DNA of 64,000 bases from a virus: positions 1 through 64,000 of the IMG/VR virus record IMGVR_UViG_3300032093_000070; one strand, given 5' to 3'. The notes beneath the pieces were generated by a model that saw only the letters and a list, made by a program, of their open reading frames with translations, was not told the DNA's origin and made no database searches. A program made the position numbers and the translations under genes. This document shows positions 3,231 through 45,812 of this stretch, piece after piece (position 1 is the stretch's first letter; every line of letters begins with the position of its first letter).

Positions 3231-3270
3231 AGAGCCCCACGGTCCTCCATCGTGGGGCTCTTATTTTTTA
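3231..3270. terminator. Strong terminator between convergent blocks
   Basis: AGAGCCCCACG (3231-3241) pairs with CGTGGGGCTCT (3251-3261), an 11-base perfect stem, followed by TATTTTTT on the plus strand. It separates the plus-strand early genes from the minus-strand block ending at 3268. On the minus strand the A/T content after the stem is weaker, so it mainly stops plus-strand transcription. A smaller inverted repeat, TCTTAGG/CCTAAGA, lies just upstream. Confidence 0.85.
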
Positions 3271-5304
3271 CTGATTATCTTTTATTAGCTTGATCTCACA
3301 CGCATCAGTTGTGCAATAAGCTTCACCAATAGCATCGGCAGCCATGCCAGCATAGACTCCAGAGAAGTCAATCGGGAATAACTTCATCGTATAGTCTTCG
3401 TACTCTTCAGCTGTGATCTGTGTGTAGGGCATCTGGGGATATACCGCGTTGCCCATAGGTAAGAAAGAGATAGTCTTGAGACGACCATCAAACATATGGA
3501 GCACCGTTCCAACCGCAGATCTCTCTTTCTCTGCATCAAAGCTCACCGTCACTGAGACTGAGTTATCAGACCAATGGTTTTGAGCTGTAGCCGCGAGAGA
3601 AACCTTTTCATAGATCGACACGTCCTTTTCTGATCTTTTAGCATCAGACTTGATCGGGAAGAACACAACGGAAGTAGTCTTAGGTGACTCTGACGCTGGT
3701 TCTATTCTGTAGTTAGCCATCTTAAATAACGGAAGCATAGGATCTTCGTTACTAAATCTAATAGCTCGAAGGAAGTACTCACCGCCGGGTGTCCAGTGAA
3801 CTCCTGGTGACTCACCTGCGAGGATAGAAACTGTTCCTGATGGCTTGACTGTTGTAGTTTTAATTGACTCACGAATACCTAGCCACTCTGAATAACCTTT
3901 GTCATATTGCTGGATCACTCCGTATCCTTCATCCATCCAGTCACGAAGTACAGACCAACCGACACGATCAGCAAAGTTAGCTACACCGGACATGGAGGTT
4001 CCAATGCGACGGTTGCGTTGCATAATCGCGTTGGTGTCTTCCCAGTGGGTAGGCAATAGGGTTACAGTCTTGGCATACAAATACGCAAACTTCAAGGTGC
4101 GCTTGTAATCTTCTAGTGAGTCATGACGGTTGAGGTAAGTCTCTACCAAAGTACAGCACTCAAAGCTTTCTAATGACTGCTCAGCACATGGGTTATACCC
4201 AGCCGCCCGCCAATCTTTATTGTTGGGTGCATCTTTGAGGCGACCATACTTACGGGTGACGTCCATCCAAATCACACCAGGCTCACCGTTTAATGCGATG
4301 CCATCAATGATATTGCTGAAATCATCTCCAACACAAACCTCGACGCTGTTGTTGCTCATCCATGCCCAGCCGGGTGCCTTTGGATCATAGGAGTTGCGCT
4401 CTGGATATACCGCAGGGTTCTTTAGGTTTAAGAAGTCTTTATCATCAAGACGACCCATAAGAAGCTCAGCACTACGGCGAACATTGCCAGATACAACGCA
4501 CACTCCAATAAGGTTGCCGATATCCGCAATATCTTTACGAGTAAGCTTTTCACCGGATCTCCCCTTAAATATCTTACGGATATAGTTGTGAAGCTTTTCT
4601 AACGGTTCGTGTCCCGCGGCTGTACCGCCGAAGGTCTTGATTGGCGTTCCCGCTGGACGGATCTCTTTGTAATCAAATACTGGGCTCTTCTGATCTGGTC
4701 GTAGGTAGGAATTGATGAGGAGGCTAACTGATTCAACCCATCCTTCTCTGGTGTCTGGGATGACGATTGGATCGGTGTCTGGTTGTGGGTCATAGATCAC
4801 GAAGTCCTTGTCTGCTCCCTTGTCATCAAATCCGACTCCCACACCTAGCATGGAAGCTTCCATAAGGAAAGCAAACGGCTTGGATGGATCGTTCTTGGTC
4901 ATGGAGCTAGTTGAAGCGAAGGCGCAATTCTGCAATGCCGCGGAGTTTTTGTACTCATTAACTAATGGGGTACCCATCACCCATAGCCCACGTCCTGGGG
5001 GTGTCCACTTCAAGTTAAATAATCGATCAAACGCCTCTTTAGCTGAGGACTGAGCTTTGGCATCATTCCATGGTAGGCGCTGGCTCTTGCAATGATCCTT
5101 TTGGATGGAGTACATACCCTCAATGACCCGCTGGCAAACATCAGTCCATGACTCTTTGGTTCCGTCTTCTTTCAAACGGGAGTAGGTACGAAGGAAGGTC
5201 ACTTCACCGACAGAATTACCTGCGGCATCTTGGTATCCCCATGGCACCTTTTTGGATTTATACCCCGCCAAAAATTCTTCTGTTAAACGGAACGATAACG
5301 CCAT
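3268..5304 (-). CDS. nrdJ: Class II (adenosylcobalamin-dependent) ribonucleotide reductase
   Basis: Reduces ribonucleotides to deoxynucleotides for phage DNA synthesis using a B12-derived radical. At 678 residues it matches the monomeric Lactobacillus leichmannii RTPR type (about 740). Visible key residues: NPCAE at 371-375 (thiyl radical Cys373, Glu375, Asn371), the redox Cys127 in QNCAFAS, its partner in the ECC pair near 383-384, and the C-terminal shuttle pair C664/C669 in CTTDACEIK. The finger-loop region TTTVKPSGTVS is also present. It is the last gene of the minus block, next to the terminator. No obvious cobalamin riboswitch is seen in the 110-base leader. Confidence 0.95.
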   Translation of the reverse strand: MALSFRLTEEFLAGYKSKKVPWGYQDAAGNSVGEVTFLRTYSRLKEDGTKESWTDVCQRVIEGMYSIQKDHCKSQRLPWNDAKAQSSAKEAFDRLFNLKWTPPGRGLWVMGTPLVNEYKNSAALQNCAFASTSSMTKNDPSKPFAFLMEASMLGVGVGFDDKGADKDFVIYDPQPDTDPIVIPDTREGWVESVSLLINSYLRPDQKSPVFDYKEIRPAGTPIKTFGGTAAGHEPLEKLHNYIRKIFKGRSGEKLTRKDIADIGNLIGVCVVSGNVRRSAELLMGRLDDKDFLNLKNPAVYPERNSYDPKAPGWAWMSNNSVEVCVGDDFSNIIDGIALNGEPGVIWMDVTRKYGRLKDAPNNKDWRAAGYNPCAEQSLESFECCTLVETYLNRHDSLEDYKRTLKFAYLYAKTVTLLPTHWEDTNAIMQRNRRIGTSMSGVANFADRVGWSVLRDWMDEGYGVIQQYDKGYSEWLGIRESIKTTTVKPSGTVSILAGESPGVHWTPGGEYFLRAIRFSNEDPMLPLFKMANYRIEPASESPKTTSVVFFPIKSDAKRSEKDVSIYEKVSLAATAQNHWSDNSVSVTVSFDAEKERSAVGTVLHMFDGRLKTISFLPMGNAVYPQMPYTQITAEEYEDYTMKLFPIDFSGVYAGMAADAIGEAYCTTDACEIKLIKDNQ

Positions 5305-5414: not shown

Positions 5415-6881
5415 CTATTCCTCTATAGATTTACGAATTATCTCGGTGGTTTCGACTTCATTTAGCCCGCCGTTAGGTAGCTCTTTGAGGGCTTGAGCCT
5501 TGTCTCCGAAGATAGAAGACAGAACTCCAGCCGATCCTTGGCGCTCCACGGTCATGCGAATGAACTCTTTTGAACTACCCATTTCTTGCATCTGGGCGAC
5601 CAATTTGTAGAGGCGGTCAATCTCTTGGGAAAGGTTCGGATCAGCGTATCCACCATTCATTTCTTCAGCAAATCGCATAAAAGCGACCCTTTGACCCTGC
5701 ATTTCAATGATTGCATTAAGTAATGCTTTGAGCTGATCTTTGGTCTTAACTTCAATTGGAAGCTTGAATGCACACATAGATTGGGGCTTAAAAGCAGGGC
5801 AGTTGCTGGCAATAAAACAGGTGTCACACTGACGAAGTGATGCTCCTTGGGTCTCAATAGACACCCGCTCTTGGATCACTCCATCGTCATCTACTTCGGT
5901 GGTTGTCTTGTATCCAAATACCGGTAAATTGGCAATTTCGTCTGGATTTCGTGGTTCAATTTTCCGCATCTGGACCCCCTTGTTATCAGGTACAGATACC
6001 CCCTTTTCCCCACTTTCCCCCACTTCACTCCCCTCGCTCTTATTATATAAGAACTCTTCTTCATCTTCATGGGTCATGCGATTTACCTTCATTTCAAATT
6101 GTTCGTATGACCAAACAGCCAAACGACATACCTCTTGGGGATCGTCTTCGAAGATCTTATCGGCGTCAATTCCAGCTTTCTCATAGATATGACGGTAGCG
6201 AGCGCGAGCTTGCTCTTTCATCTTCTTTGGATATCTTACCAGCCTAGTGCCGTCCCAAATAATTGTTTCACCGTGCATCATGGGTGATAGCCATGACAAG
6301 GTGCTTGCGGTCTCAACCTTTACTTGACGTAAGTTGTCTGGCTTGGCACACCCTAACGCATGGAATCTGGATCCATCTTTGGTTGCGTGTAGTCTGGTTG
6401 CGCTGGCTAGCTGACTGTCGTGCTCAATAGCTTCCCCCGATATTGCTATATCAAGGTAGGTATCGGTCAACGCCTTGAGCCCCCGTAATCCCGTCTCAGA
6501 GCTCCATACAGGCAAGAACTTACCCGGAGGTACCTCTGACCAGGCAGTGCGCCTTTGTTGGTCTACGAACTCTCTGGAGGCAAAATCACCGCTGATCTCT
6601 GTAAAGTAGGTCAATCGATCTATATTGGTGGCTATAAAGTCCTCGTATTTAGCGGCAAACACTTCCAAGTCAAGGCGATCCAATCTGGTTCCCTTAGGTA
6701 TGCCTGGGTGCACATAAATGTATGTGTCCTTTGAAAAATAGTTTTCCAATAAAAAGTCGCTCTTCTTGGGCAGTCCCCGCTTCATAGCCCGCCAGTAGCT
6801 AAACCCAACATGGTTAGCTGTGGTGGTCTCTAACAGTACGCGGTTACTGGGAACTTCCGCGCCCATGTAAACAATTCTCAT
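5415..6881 (-). CDS. Large conserved phage protein, possibly TGT/DpdA-like
   Basis: A 488-residue protein. The N-terminal half starts IVYMGAEVPSNR and reads like an alpha/beta barrel. Around residues 175-205 it has RFHALG followed by VETASTLSWLSP, reminiscent of the H..G and DSxSW segments of queuine/preQ0 transglycosylase-like DpdA proteins, though the Asp expected there is not obvious. The C-terminal third has a Cys cluster (CDTC, NCPAF, SMCAF) that may bind a metal or FeS cluster, then a helical tail. If DpdA-like, it would insert a deazaguanine into DNA; no queuosine-pathway gene is visible here. The family assignment is tentative. Confidence 0.4.
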   Translation of the reverse strand: MRIVYMGAEVPSNRVLLETTTANHVGFSYWRAMKRGLPKKSDFLLENYFSKDTYIYVHPGIPKGTRLDRLDLEVFAAKYEDFIATNIDRLTYFTEISGDFASREFVDQQRRTAWSEVPPGKFLPVWSSETGLRGLKALTDTYLDIAISGEAIEHDSQLASATRLHATKDGSRFHALGCAKPDNLRQVKVETASTLSWLSPMMHGETIIWDGTRLVRYPKKMKEQARARYRHIYEKAGIDADKIFEDDPQEVCRLAVWSYEQFEMKVNRMTHEDEEEFLYNKSEGSEVGESGEKGVSVPDNKGVQMRKIEPRNPDEIANLPVFGYKTTTEVDDDGVIQERVSIETQGASLRQCDTCFIASNCPAFKPQSMCAFKLPIEVKTKDQLKALLNAIIEMQGQRVAFMRFAEEMNGGYADPNLSQEIDRLYKLVAQMQEMGSSKEFIRMTVERQGSAGVLSSIFGDKAQALKELPNGGLNEVETTEIIRKSIEE

Positions 6882-13266: not shown

Positions 13267-13291
13267 AAAAAAACCCCGCTAAAAAGCGGGG
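13267..13291 (-). terminator. Minus-strand terminator
   Basis: Read on the minus strand, CCCCGCT and AGCGGGG form a stem (13274-13280 with 13285-13291, loop of four) followed by a run of seven T (complement of 13267-13273). It lies downstream of the small basic gene ending at 13308. Just beside it is an 18-base palindrome, TAATTTGTCGACAAATTA (13293-13310). Confidence 0.8.
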
Positions 13292-13307
13292 CTAATTTGT
13301 CGACAAA

Positions 13308-13658
13308 TTAATTTAAGTCGGCTGATCCAGCTTGGAAGTTAGGAGCTTGGCGCTTGACTGCTGAGGTAAAAATGCGACCATTTGATTGAGTAGCACCTGC
13401 TTCTGGTGCAACAGTGGCATTCATCTTTACTCCAACGCCATAACGAGCACCATAACTAGTTGCTCCCGCATGCTTAACATTCTTGCGTGAAGGTTTTGCT
13501 TGCTTATATGGATCGGCAGCCTGTGCGCCCTTTTTCTTTACAAGGGTGCCGGCTTTTGGAGACGCGGAAGGCGTCTTAAACTTTAGACCCGAAGCGTTTT
13601 CGGTACCCGCACTTACGGGCGCGATTGGCGCTGGGTTCTTCTTTGAATCTTTGTTCAT
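13308..13658 (-). CDS. Basic low-complexity protein (116 aa)
   Basis: Unknown. Ala, Pro, Lys and Ser-rich, basic throughout, ending in a more ordered part (GVGVKMNATVAPEAGATQSNG). It could be a DNA-associated or internal virion protein. It is followed by a clear terminator, so it ends a transcript. Confidence 0.6.
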   Translation of the reverse strand: MNKDSKKNPAPIAPVSAGTENASGLKFKTPSASPKAGTLVKKKGAQAADPYKQAKPSRKNVKHAGATSYGARYGVGVKMNATVAPEAGATQSNGRIFTSAVKRQAPNFQAGSADLN

Positions 13659-13717: not shown

Positions 13718-13996
13718 CTAATTAGCCACTACAAGGAATACGATGGCTGAGATCTGGCCGTCATGGCTCTCAATACTGGCAAAACCAGGAATACAGCTCA
13801 AATCCAAGCCTCTTGGCGCTGTATAGCCACGTGCAATTGCAATTGCCTTCACGGCTTGATTTACGGCTCCAGCACCTACCGCACGGATCTTGCATTGGCG
13901 ATTCTCATAAATTGCGTGAGCAATAGCTGAAGCGACTGATTGGGGGTTAGATCCGGCGGATACCCGCAGGATGTTTTCGGTTTGTTCTGATGTCAT
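13718..13996 (-). CDS. spoVS: SpoVS-family protein
   Basis: A 92-residue match to stage V sporulation protein S (Alba-like fold, about 86 residues): ILRVSAGSNPQSVASAIA, then IRAVGAGAVNQAVKAIAIARGY and the late segment ISAIVFLV. SpoVS proteins are small dimeric nucleic-acid-binding regulators in bacteria, known from sporulation in Bacillus and also seen in non-sporulating lineages. In a phage it may modulate host development or bind RNA/DNA. The ribosome site GAGGTAAC could pair with an upstream TTACCTC (see the hairpin entry). Confidence 0.9.
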   Translation of the reverse strand: MTSEQTENILRVSAGSNPQSVASAIAHAIYENRQCKIRAVGAGAVNQAVKAIAIARGYTAPRGLDLSCIPGFASIESHDGQISAIVFLVVAN

Positions 13997-13998
13997 TG

Positions 13999-14048
13999 TT
14001 ACCTCGGTTTACGAATAGTGGTTTCCCCGTCCGTAAAGTATGAGGTAA
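13999..14048 (-). promoter_or_regulatory. Hairpin that could hide the spoVS ribosome binding site
   Basis: On the minus strand, TTACCTC (complement of 14042-14048) can pair with GAGGTAA (complement of 13999-14005), which is the Shine-Dalgarno of spoVS, and TTTACG pairs with CGTAAA inside (14032-14037 with 14008-14013). The loop is about 18 bases. Closing this hairpin would block translation, so it may be a binding site for SpoVS itself or another regulator. Confidence 0.45.
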
Positions 14049-14052
14049 TTTA

Positions 14053-14235
14053 CTAACTCTTTGTGTCTAAAGGTGTTGGGGCAGTTGCTAAATTACCGCA
14101 CAATGAGCATTCCATATCAAGCATGTATAGGGATATAGCCCCGTCATCATCAAACATAGCCTTTACATCCCATAGCATTGAGCCACAGGAACATATCCGT
14201 AATGGATTGTCTTTATCCCTAAGATCTAGTGCCAT
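14053..14235 (-). CDS. Small zinc-binding protein (60 aa)
   Basis: ICSCGS near residue 15 and CSLCGN near 45 form a four-Cys site. The ATG at 14235 overlaps the preceding TAA (TAATG) and follows GGATGGTGG, so it is preferred to a start five codons upstream. Third in a run of consecutive tiny zinc proteins. Confidence 0.6.
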   Translation of the reverse strand: MALDLRDKDNPLRICSCGSMLWDVKAMFDDDGAISLYMLDMECSLCGNLATAPTPLDTKS

Positions 14236-14399
14236 TAGATTGACCACCATCCTTGTAAAGTAGCTTTACCGCTTGCGATCCAGTCTCTATGAAGCTCATG
14301 CTGTTTAGTCCAGTCCGTTCTATGTGAGGGCTTTCCGCAGAAAGGGCACGGGTCAGAGTCAACCTCTTCGTAAACATGACGGCAATACTCATTGCCCAC
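14235..14399 (-). CDS. Small zinc-finger protein (54 aa), GTG start
   Basis: A GTG at 14399 opens a 54-residue frame: EYCRHVYEEVDSDPCPFCGKPSHR, with a C..H and CPFC set, ending WIASGKATLQGWWSI. AGGGAGG stands ahead of the GTG, and the frame ends on the start of the next gene. The longer frame on the same strand at 14219-14404 lacks such features and is likely a shadow. Confidence 0.6.
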   Translation of the reverse strand: MGNEYCRHVYEEVDSDPCPFCGKPSHRTDWTKQHELHRDWIASGKATLQGWWSI

Positions 14400-16454: not shown

Positions 16455-16766
16455 TCATGATTGACTGACATATTCCTCTAGCGACTTGCCCAGCTTTTTA
16501 GCTTTACGCTTAAGGGCATTGCGCTCACGATGGCTCATGCCACCCCAGATACCGTGTTGCTCTTCCATCTTTTCTGCGTACAACAAGCACTGTTTACGCA
16601 CTGGGCATTCAGGTAAACCATCTCGCCCAAAGCACACGGCCTTTGATACTTCCGCGATCTTGCGATACTTTGTTTTGTCTCGTGGCGGATACCAAAGCTC
16701 GGTGTCCATGCCACGGCATTTAGCTTTATAGCGCCAGGATTCTACGCTTCCTGTGTCTTCGTACAA
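16455..16766 (-). CDS. whiB: WhiB-family FeS transcription regulator
   Basis: 103 residues with four Cys (17, 45, 54, 60), CPVRKQC, and the diagnostic turn GIWGGMSHRER followed by a basic C-terminal tail. WhiB proteins bind a 4Fe-4S cluster and the sigma factor; the family is restricted to Actinobacteria and their phages, which indicates the host. The spacing between Cys45 and Cys54 is eight residues instead of the usual two. No ATG or GTG precedes Cys17; a TTG at 16766 with AGGAG five bases ahead is the likely start. Confidence 0.92.
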   Translation of the reverse strand: MYEDTGSVESWRYKAKCRGMDTELWYPPRDKTKYRKIAEVSKAVCFGRDGLPECPVRKQCLLYAEKMEEQHGIWGGMSHRERNALKRKAKKLGKSLEEYVSQS

Positions 16767-45377: not shown

Positions 45378-45505
45378 TATTTTTTACCCTTCTTCTTGTC
45401 TTTTACAGGCGCACCCTTCTTTGCAGCAAACTTCTTGTTCGCCGCTTTGAGGGTCTTCATCCCGTGCTTGTCCTTGGGACGGCCACAACCGCAGGTCGCG
45501 CACAT
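45377..45505 (-). CDS. Lys-rich mini-protein with MCATCGC start (42 aa)
   Basis: MCATCGCGRPKDKHGMKTL then a Lys/Ala-rich tail (AANKKFAAKKGAPVKDKKKGKK). The N-terminal MCATCGC is shared with the next gene, indicating duplication. Metal-binding head and basic tail; function unknown. Confidence 0.55.
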   Translation of the reverse strand: MCATCGCGRPKDKHGMKTLKAANKKFAAKKGAPVKDKKKGKK

Positions 45506-45666
45506 TACTTCTTCTTCTTTGCACGAAGAGCAGCGAAGTCTGATCCTTCTAACTTGCCGTTCTTGTTTGTATCAAGTTTCTTTTGCTTAGAAGATAATCC
45601 CTTTGTTGCTGCCTTCTTAGCTGGGGCTTTCTTCTTGTTACCCATGCAACCACATGTAGCGCACAT
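45505..45666 (-). CDS. Mini-protein with MCATCGC start and EF-hand-like loop (53 aa)
   Basis: The N-terminus MCATCGCMGNKKKAPAKK is a paralogue of the preceding gene's start. The middle, LDTNKNGKLEGSDFAAL, matches an EF-hand/dockerin-type Ca-binding loop (D-x-N-x-N-G-x-L-x-x-x-D). It ends with KKKK. A basic peptide with two possible metal sites; role unknown. Confidence 0.55.
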   Translation of the reverse strand: MCATCGCMGNKKKAPAKKAATKGLSSKQKKLDTNKNGKLEGSDFAALRAKKKK

Positions 45667-45812
45667 TACTTCTTACCTGCTTTCTGTTTCTTGGGTTTTG
45701 CGACTTTGTTCTTGCCGGATCCTTCTGGGACACAGTTAGGAACCTTCTTGCCATTTTTCATTTTAAAACCAACTTGGACATAGCCGTCCCAGCATGGACC
45801 TTGCTTTGCCAT
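45666..45812 (-). CDS. Small basic protein with PCWDGYVQVGFK...VPNCVP motif (48 aa)
   Basis: The stretch CWDGYVQVGFKMKNGKKVPNCVP is a recurrent phage motif (a Cys, a hydrophobic VQVG, then NGKxVPNCVP) seen in many myoviruses near head genes, function unknown. The tail is Lys-rich. Packed by TAATG overlaps on both sides. Confidence 0.6.
   Translation of the reverse strand: MAKQGPCWDGYVQVGFKMKNGKKVPNCVPEGSGKNKVAKPKKQKAGKK

Follow-up and report, generated by a model that had tools for sequence, protein, structure and literature searches.

The leader of a phage spoVS gene probably hides its ribosome-binding site on read-through RNA, in the manner of T4 gene e

Several phage genes, among them T4 e, soc, 49, I-TevI and segB and Aeh1 mobE, are preceded by a helix that hides the Shine-Dalgarno sequence (SD) in long read-through transcripts, and in genes of this type a promoter located within the 5' strand of the helix yields a short, translatable mRNA devoid of that strand (PMC3014915, PMC2988022). 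The T4 promoters concerned are gp55-type late promoters (TATAAATA) of known timing. A comparable arrangement is found in the transposase genes of IS10 and IS50, whose read-through RNA folds over the SD whereas RNA initiated at the inner promoter does not, the inverted repeat being contributed by the ends of the mobile element. The autoregulation of T4 gp43 and gp32 likewise involves a leader structure at the SD, in this instance a conserved RNA operator bound by the nucleic-acid-binding phage protein itself.

The phage spoVS leader analyzed here resembles the gene e group in that, by computation, its SD is hidden in the long transcript and a promoter lies inside the 5' strand. It differs from that group in the nature of the promoter, which looks host-like (a -35-like element followed by a CATAAT -10), in the gene controlled and in its actinobacterial hosts. 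As in IS10 and IS50, the SD is predicted to be hidden in read-through RNA and not in own-promoter RNA, except that the complementary strands of spoVS turn over freely within a phage operon. With gp43 and gp32 it shares a structure at the SD and a phage protein of nucleic-acid-binding kind, but no stem sequence is conserved. Our best reading is thus that the mechanism already known from T4 gene e is at work in a large group of uncultured actinobacterial phages, and we assign a probability of about 0.7 to the spoVS leader being a gate of this type, closed on read-through mRNA and open on mRNA from the gene's own promoter.

The window, i.e., the whole stretch of DNA that was analyzed, comprises 64,000 nucleotides of an 81 kb virus record. 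Since the contig encodes a tail sheath, a baseplate, a family A polymerase, RecA, a Cas4-like exonuclease, a RuvC-like resolvase and a WhiB-like protein, it most likely belongs to a contractile-tailed phage of Actinobacteria. The WhiB-like protein (16455-16766, minus strand) points to an actinobacterial host. Between 62 kb and 3 kb nearly all genes of the window run on the minus strand, and spoVS therefore sits within a long one-way gene array. A lone plus-strand open reading frame (45464-45739, 91 aa), without a PHROG match, is found inside this array; the energy required to open its SD is the second highest of the window (8.9 kcal/mol, 4.3 once shortened). A match to the queuine tRNA-ribosyltransferase PHROG (5415-6881, minus strand) adjoins ribonucleotide reductase (3268-5304). 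Searches for near-identical phage records found none, an Rfam scan of the window returned no match and ARAGORN detected no tRNAs in it.

The SpoVS protein of the window matches Pfam PF04232 (E 1.1e-29; 102.4 bits for a cut-off of 24) and the SpoVS structures 2eh1 and 2ek0 of the PDB (E 4e-17), its fold being already solved in 2eh1. An earlier note on this DNA, prepared from the sequence alone, had presented SpoVS as a normally chromosomal regulator. This premise of an unusual chromosomal gene fails in view of the abundance of viral matches, at least ~590 confirmed ones per viral-contig scan; the closest cellular SpoVS proteins found share no more than 64% identity with that of the phage and are mostly from Bacillota. 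The features of the locus are as follows, with the evidence for each in parentheses.

13718..13996, minus strand: SpoVS coding sequence, 92 aa, ATG start (Pfam PF04232, PHROG 35646, PDB 2eh1)
13999..14005, minus strand: GAGGTAA, SD and 3' strand of the outer stem (sequence, fold)
14008..14013, minus strand: CGTAAA, 3' strand of the inner stem (sequence, fold)
14000..14020, minus strand: CACTATTCGTAAACCGAGGTA, conserved element within the transcribed leader (leader comparison; one occurrence in the window)
14030, minus strand: predicted start of transcription at the A of ACGGGG, 12 nt past the -10 start (spacing rule and conserved purine-rich ACGGGG / GGGAG at +12/+13)
14032..14037, minus strand: TTTACG, 5' strand of the inner stem, lying past the -10 hexamer and ahead of the predicted start site (sequence, fold)
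14037..14042, minus strand: CATACT, predicted -10, CATAAT in most relatives (58/67 non-redundant leaders; position weight matrix unique in the window)
14042..14048, minus strand: TTACCTC, outer 5' (anti-SD) strand, which shares its final base with the start of the -10 hexamer (sequence, fold, coupling scan)
14060..14071, minus strand: TTTAGACACAAA, conserved 12-mer of the -35 region, 29 nt 5' of the -10 start (48/58 leaders)
14053..14250, minus strand: co-directional gene upstream of spoVS, encoding 65 aa with the C-terminus ..ATAPTPLDTKS; it stops 56 nt short of the SpoVS ATG and is the presumed source of read-through RNA
13308..13658, minus strand: small basic protein downstream of spoVS, probably in the same transcription unit
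13272..13293, minus strand: intrinsic terminator at the end of the spoVS unit, with a 9 bp stem (6 G-C) and a T run

From 5' to 3', the leader thus reads TTTAGACACAAA-(17)-CATACT-TTACGG-ACGGGG...CACTATTCGTAAACCGAGGTAACA-ATG. At the other end of the locus, the strong terminator found past the gene 3' of spoVS (13272-13293, minus strand) probably marks the end of a two-gene spoVS unit.

The two-part stem of the earlier note, in which TTACCTC pairs with GAGGTAA and TTTACG with CGTAAA over the SD, is present on the minus strand as described. The leader fold has an energy of -16.5 kcal/mol (z -3.0), a value equaled by 3 of 200 shuffled sequences, so that this single stem is only moderately better than chance. 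The cost of opening the SD of spoVS, in contrast, is the highest among the 63 predicted genes of the window (9.0 kcal/mol for a median of 2.6). As to whether the stem is conserved in related phages, the answer differs for its pairing, which is retained (see below), and for its letters, which are not: the exact TTACCTC arm is missing even from the closest relatives L002 and L003, where the strong arm is lost, and the nearest relatives other than L001 have a weaker stem. Both the loss of the exact arms in the next relatives and a shuffling z of only -3 are what would be expected from a one-leader coincidence devoid of function; this explanation is nonetheless extremely improbable, as it is already contradicted for the family by a coupling that extends over 67 lineages while the controls are flat.

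That coupling was measured on 297 loci from relatives, which yielded 95 distinct leaders and 67 non-redundant ones (<85% identity). The letters of the arms turn over rapidly, pairs such as TTACCTC/GAGGTAA, TATACCTC/GAGGTATA, TGTACCT/AGGTACA, TGTTCCT/AGGAACA, TAATACT/AGTATTA and TTATGCT/AGCATAA replacing one another, and column covariation on one alignment would therefore miss the pairing. Instead, the 5' segment of each leader (-65..-30) was paired with its own SD region and with the SD regions of its relatives. Own pairing was stronger than cross pairing (-9.14 versus -7.02 kcal/mol, z -8.8, 67 non-redundant leaders), whereas the flanking segment -100..-65 (z -0.7) and a coding segment (z +1.3) gave flat controls. 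Restricting the permutation to protein clusters left the signal in place (z -7.6 to -9.9) and the controls flat. In a test on sister pairs, where common descent has less influence, 34 comparisons were negative and 8 positive (p 3e-5); the control segment -100..-65 also displayed a small bias in this test (29 versus 12, mean -0.2 kcal). The own-versus-cross value was -2.10 +/- 0.39 for spoVS as compared to -0.06 +/- 0.12 for 414 control genes from the same contigs, and 64 leaders of chromosomal spoVS genes yielded no pairing signal (z -1.1).

In sliding windows, the coupling was maximal at +3..+20 from the -10 start, and absent or reversed farther down, in the transcribed leader. One common register pairs the discriminator (+6..+12) with positions -2..-8; in this register, 6 or all 7 of the 7 positions are paired in 13 of 58 leaders, where 3.3 were expected, and these leaders achieve it through at least four sequence solutions (AGGTACA, AGGAACA, AGTATTA and AGCATAA). 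The stem is thus real and its pairing is confirmed to be maintained across relatives. Because it covers the ribosome-binding site and its pairing is conserved in related phages, it is likely to control the initiation of spoVS translation. The possibility that the stem merely reflects the promoter -10 (CCTC before ATAAT) was ruled out by the cross-pairing controls.

The promoter that overlies the 5' strand had escaped the earlier note. A [CTG]ATA[AC]T motif is found 30-60 nt before the ATG in 58 of the 67 leaders, and TTTAGnCnnACA, located exactly 29 nt before CATAAT, is unique to spoVS. With a threshold of 8 of 12 positions, the 12-mer TTTAGMCWKACA occurs at offset 29 in 48 of the 58 leaders; none of the other offsets between 20 and 39 has it in more than 4. 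The same bases encode Pro-Leu-Asp of the upstream gene in some phages and its stop codon in others; the constraint therefore acts on DNA. A position weight matrix of the promoter scored the spoVS site of the window, itself one of the 48 training sites, at 26.8 bits and the next site of the window at 10.2 bits, while non-spoVS sites in 796 kb of loci reached at most 13.6 bits; no convincing copy of this promoter was thus found by the matrix at other genes in the window or in those 796 kb. A scan of the window for consensus sigma-70 promoters did not call the spoVS site because its -35 hexamer is weak: at 17-bp spacing it reads CACAAA, a poor match to TTGACA that counts against the gate. The type of promoter suggests recognition by a host-type polymerase. 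With the usual spacing of 6-7 nt after the -10, transcription is predicted to begin at the purine of ACGGGG/GGGAG, which is position 14030 of the window. The two 5' strands of the stem are both upstream of this position, and since the 5' strand is in and just behind the conserved promoter, it should be missing from the mRNA that spoVS makes for itself. In one divergent leader (L006), the usual promoter motif is absent and the SD-hiding duplex is the strongest of the set (-17.5 kcal/mol).

As the complementarity overlies a promoter, the two strands might alternatively be operator half-sites in DNA, an inverted repeat that spans promoter and leader and is recognized by SpoVS or by a phage repressor. 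Pairing computed on the sense and antisense strands was indeed similar in strength (z -9.7 versus -7.5; paired p 0.06-0.42), and the asymmetry between strands, G-U over A-C, is only suggestive of pairing at the RNA level. A protein operator, however, would keep both half-sites and the distance between them, whereas both vary between relatives; the DNA reading is unlikely because the half-sites change while the protein is nearly constant. It is further at odds with a pairing centered on the SD and AUG rather than on a fixed position of the promoter, and with control genes and chromosomal spoVS, whose SD opening does not show the effect.

Truncation in silico bears on which RNA would carry the block. 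The cost of opening the SD was 5.37 kcal/mol for spoVS leaders and 2.72 kcal/mol for controls (p 6e-14). Upon shortening from the 5' end it stayed at ~5 kcal/mol until the -10 and reached control level at +12, where RNA starting at that position required 2.15 kcal/mol in spoVS and 2.43 kcal/mol in controls. In the window, opening fell from 9.0 to 1.9 kcal/mol when the RNA began at the predicted start. Truncation to +12 reduced the cost by more than 1 kcal in 45 of 58 leaders; in about a fifth of them (~13 of 58, e.g. L008, L017, L011 and L220), the gain was small or nil. The genomic context is that expected for read-through: in 67 of 67 leaders the upstream gene has the orientation of spoVS and ends 45-87 nt before the ATG, and a terminator-like site separates it from spoVS in one of the 67.

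Were transcription to start further upstream, the hairpin would form in the mRNA of spoVS itself and could serve as a translation damper, a thermosensor or a riboregulator. Such a reading would fit a leader fold that is stable when the 5' sequence is included, but we regard it as very unlikely, given that the start predicted from the fixed-spacing promoter motif falls past the 5' strand, that the outer arm of the window extends upstream of the -10 itself and that the transcribed part shows either no coupling or a reversed one.

The gate on read-through mRNA is, in computational terms, supported by the stem, the lineage-specific complementarity, the promoter motif, the co-directional upstream genes and the loss of the block upon truncation. 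From these we infer the start site, the two classes of transcript and the effect on translation. Long polycistronic mRNA would enter spoVS from the co-directional genes upstream, and the strand encoded by the -10 and discriminator would pair with the SD/AUG region and block ribosome binding. Transcription from the gene's own promoter would begin ~12 nt past the -10 start, downstream of the blocking strand, and on the resulting short mRNA the SD would be open and SpoVS translated. Synthesis of SpoVS would then depend on the firing of the gene's own promoter alone, and read-through would not contribute to it.

Since such a gate explains the data, binding of SpoVS to its leader is not needed. The earlier note had proposed that SpoVS represses its own translation through the hairpin and had taken the hairpin as a hint that SpoVS binds RNA. 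The Alba superfamily to which SpoVS belongs by its fold does include RNA binders as well as DNA binders (PMC11621453), a hairpin does cover the SD, and the transcribed leader does contain a conserved CACTA-TTCGTAAACC. Yet phages whose SpoVS proteins share 78-98% identity have stems that are unlike in sequence, in register and in loop, and this speaks against recognition of a specific sequence; the arms vary freely while the protein hardly changes, and a conserved recognition element of the gp43 type was not found in the hairpin. Moreover, mRNA from the gene's own promoter should lack the 5' strand, and the conserved leader element is single in the window, with no second copy there that could represent another target in a SpoVS regulon. 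Autoregulation thus finds no support and is very improbable indeed, nor is the proposal that SpoVS binds RNA supported by the hairpin, which says nothing about the nature of the SpoVS ligand. CACTA-TTCGTAAACC, located just 5' of the SD, is kept across many lineages with variants ACTAATTCGAGCATAA and CATTCGTAACCC, and the gate does not explain this element.

Read-through gates have been documented for a handful of T4-type genes; the present one would extend them to dozens of environmental phage lineages, whose many natural compensatory solutions provide a test set for the evolution of anti-SD strands inside promoters. Phage SpoVS, which is commonly classed as an auxiliary gene of sporulation, would become a protein whose timing or amount of production is carefully guarded by the phage, a concrete reason to ask what role it plays in infection. 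More tentatively, and with somewhat less than an even chance of being right, the leader may be part of an insulator widespread among uncultivated actinophages, in which selection retains only the complementarity between discriminator and SD, leaving the letters free, and in which SpoVS is produced strictly from a single host-type promoter of its own (perhaps active only early, the opposite of T4), with a terminator doing the same job in Streptomyces phages. If so, mistimed or excess SpoVS would be costly to the phage.

The Streptomyces phages LuckySocke (L379), pSt2308 (L380), BRock (L381) and GiJojo (L384) resemble the window in that a RuvC-like resolvase gene is followed by spoVS in the same direction, an order deduced in pSt2308 from position and length, as the neighbors are annotated there only as hypothetical. 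They differ from it in that spoVS is apparently insulated by termination instead: in all four, the two genes are separated by a very stable terminator-like hairpin, which precedes a TACAAT element and was only weakly matched by a simple terminator pattern because its loop is long. This looks like a second route to the same insulation of spoVS. The TACAAT region of LuckySocke also pairs with the SD side (GGATAC/GTATCC).
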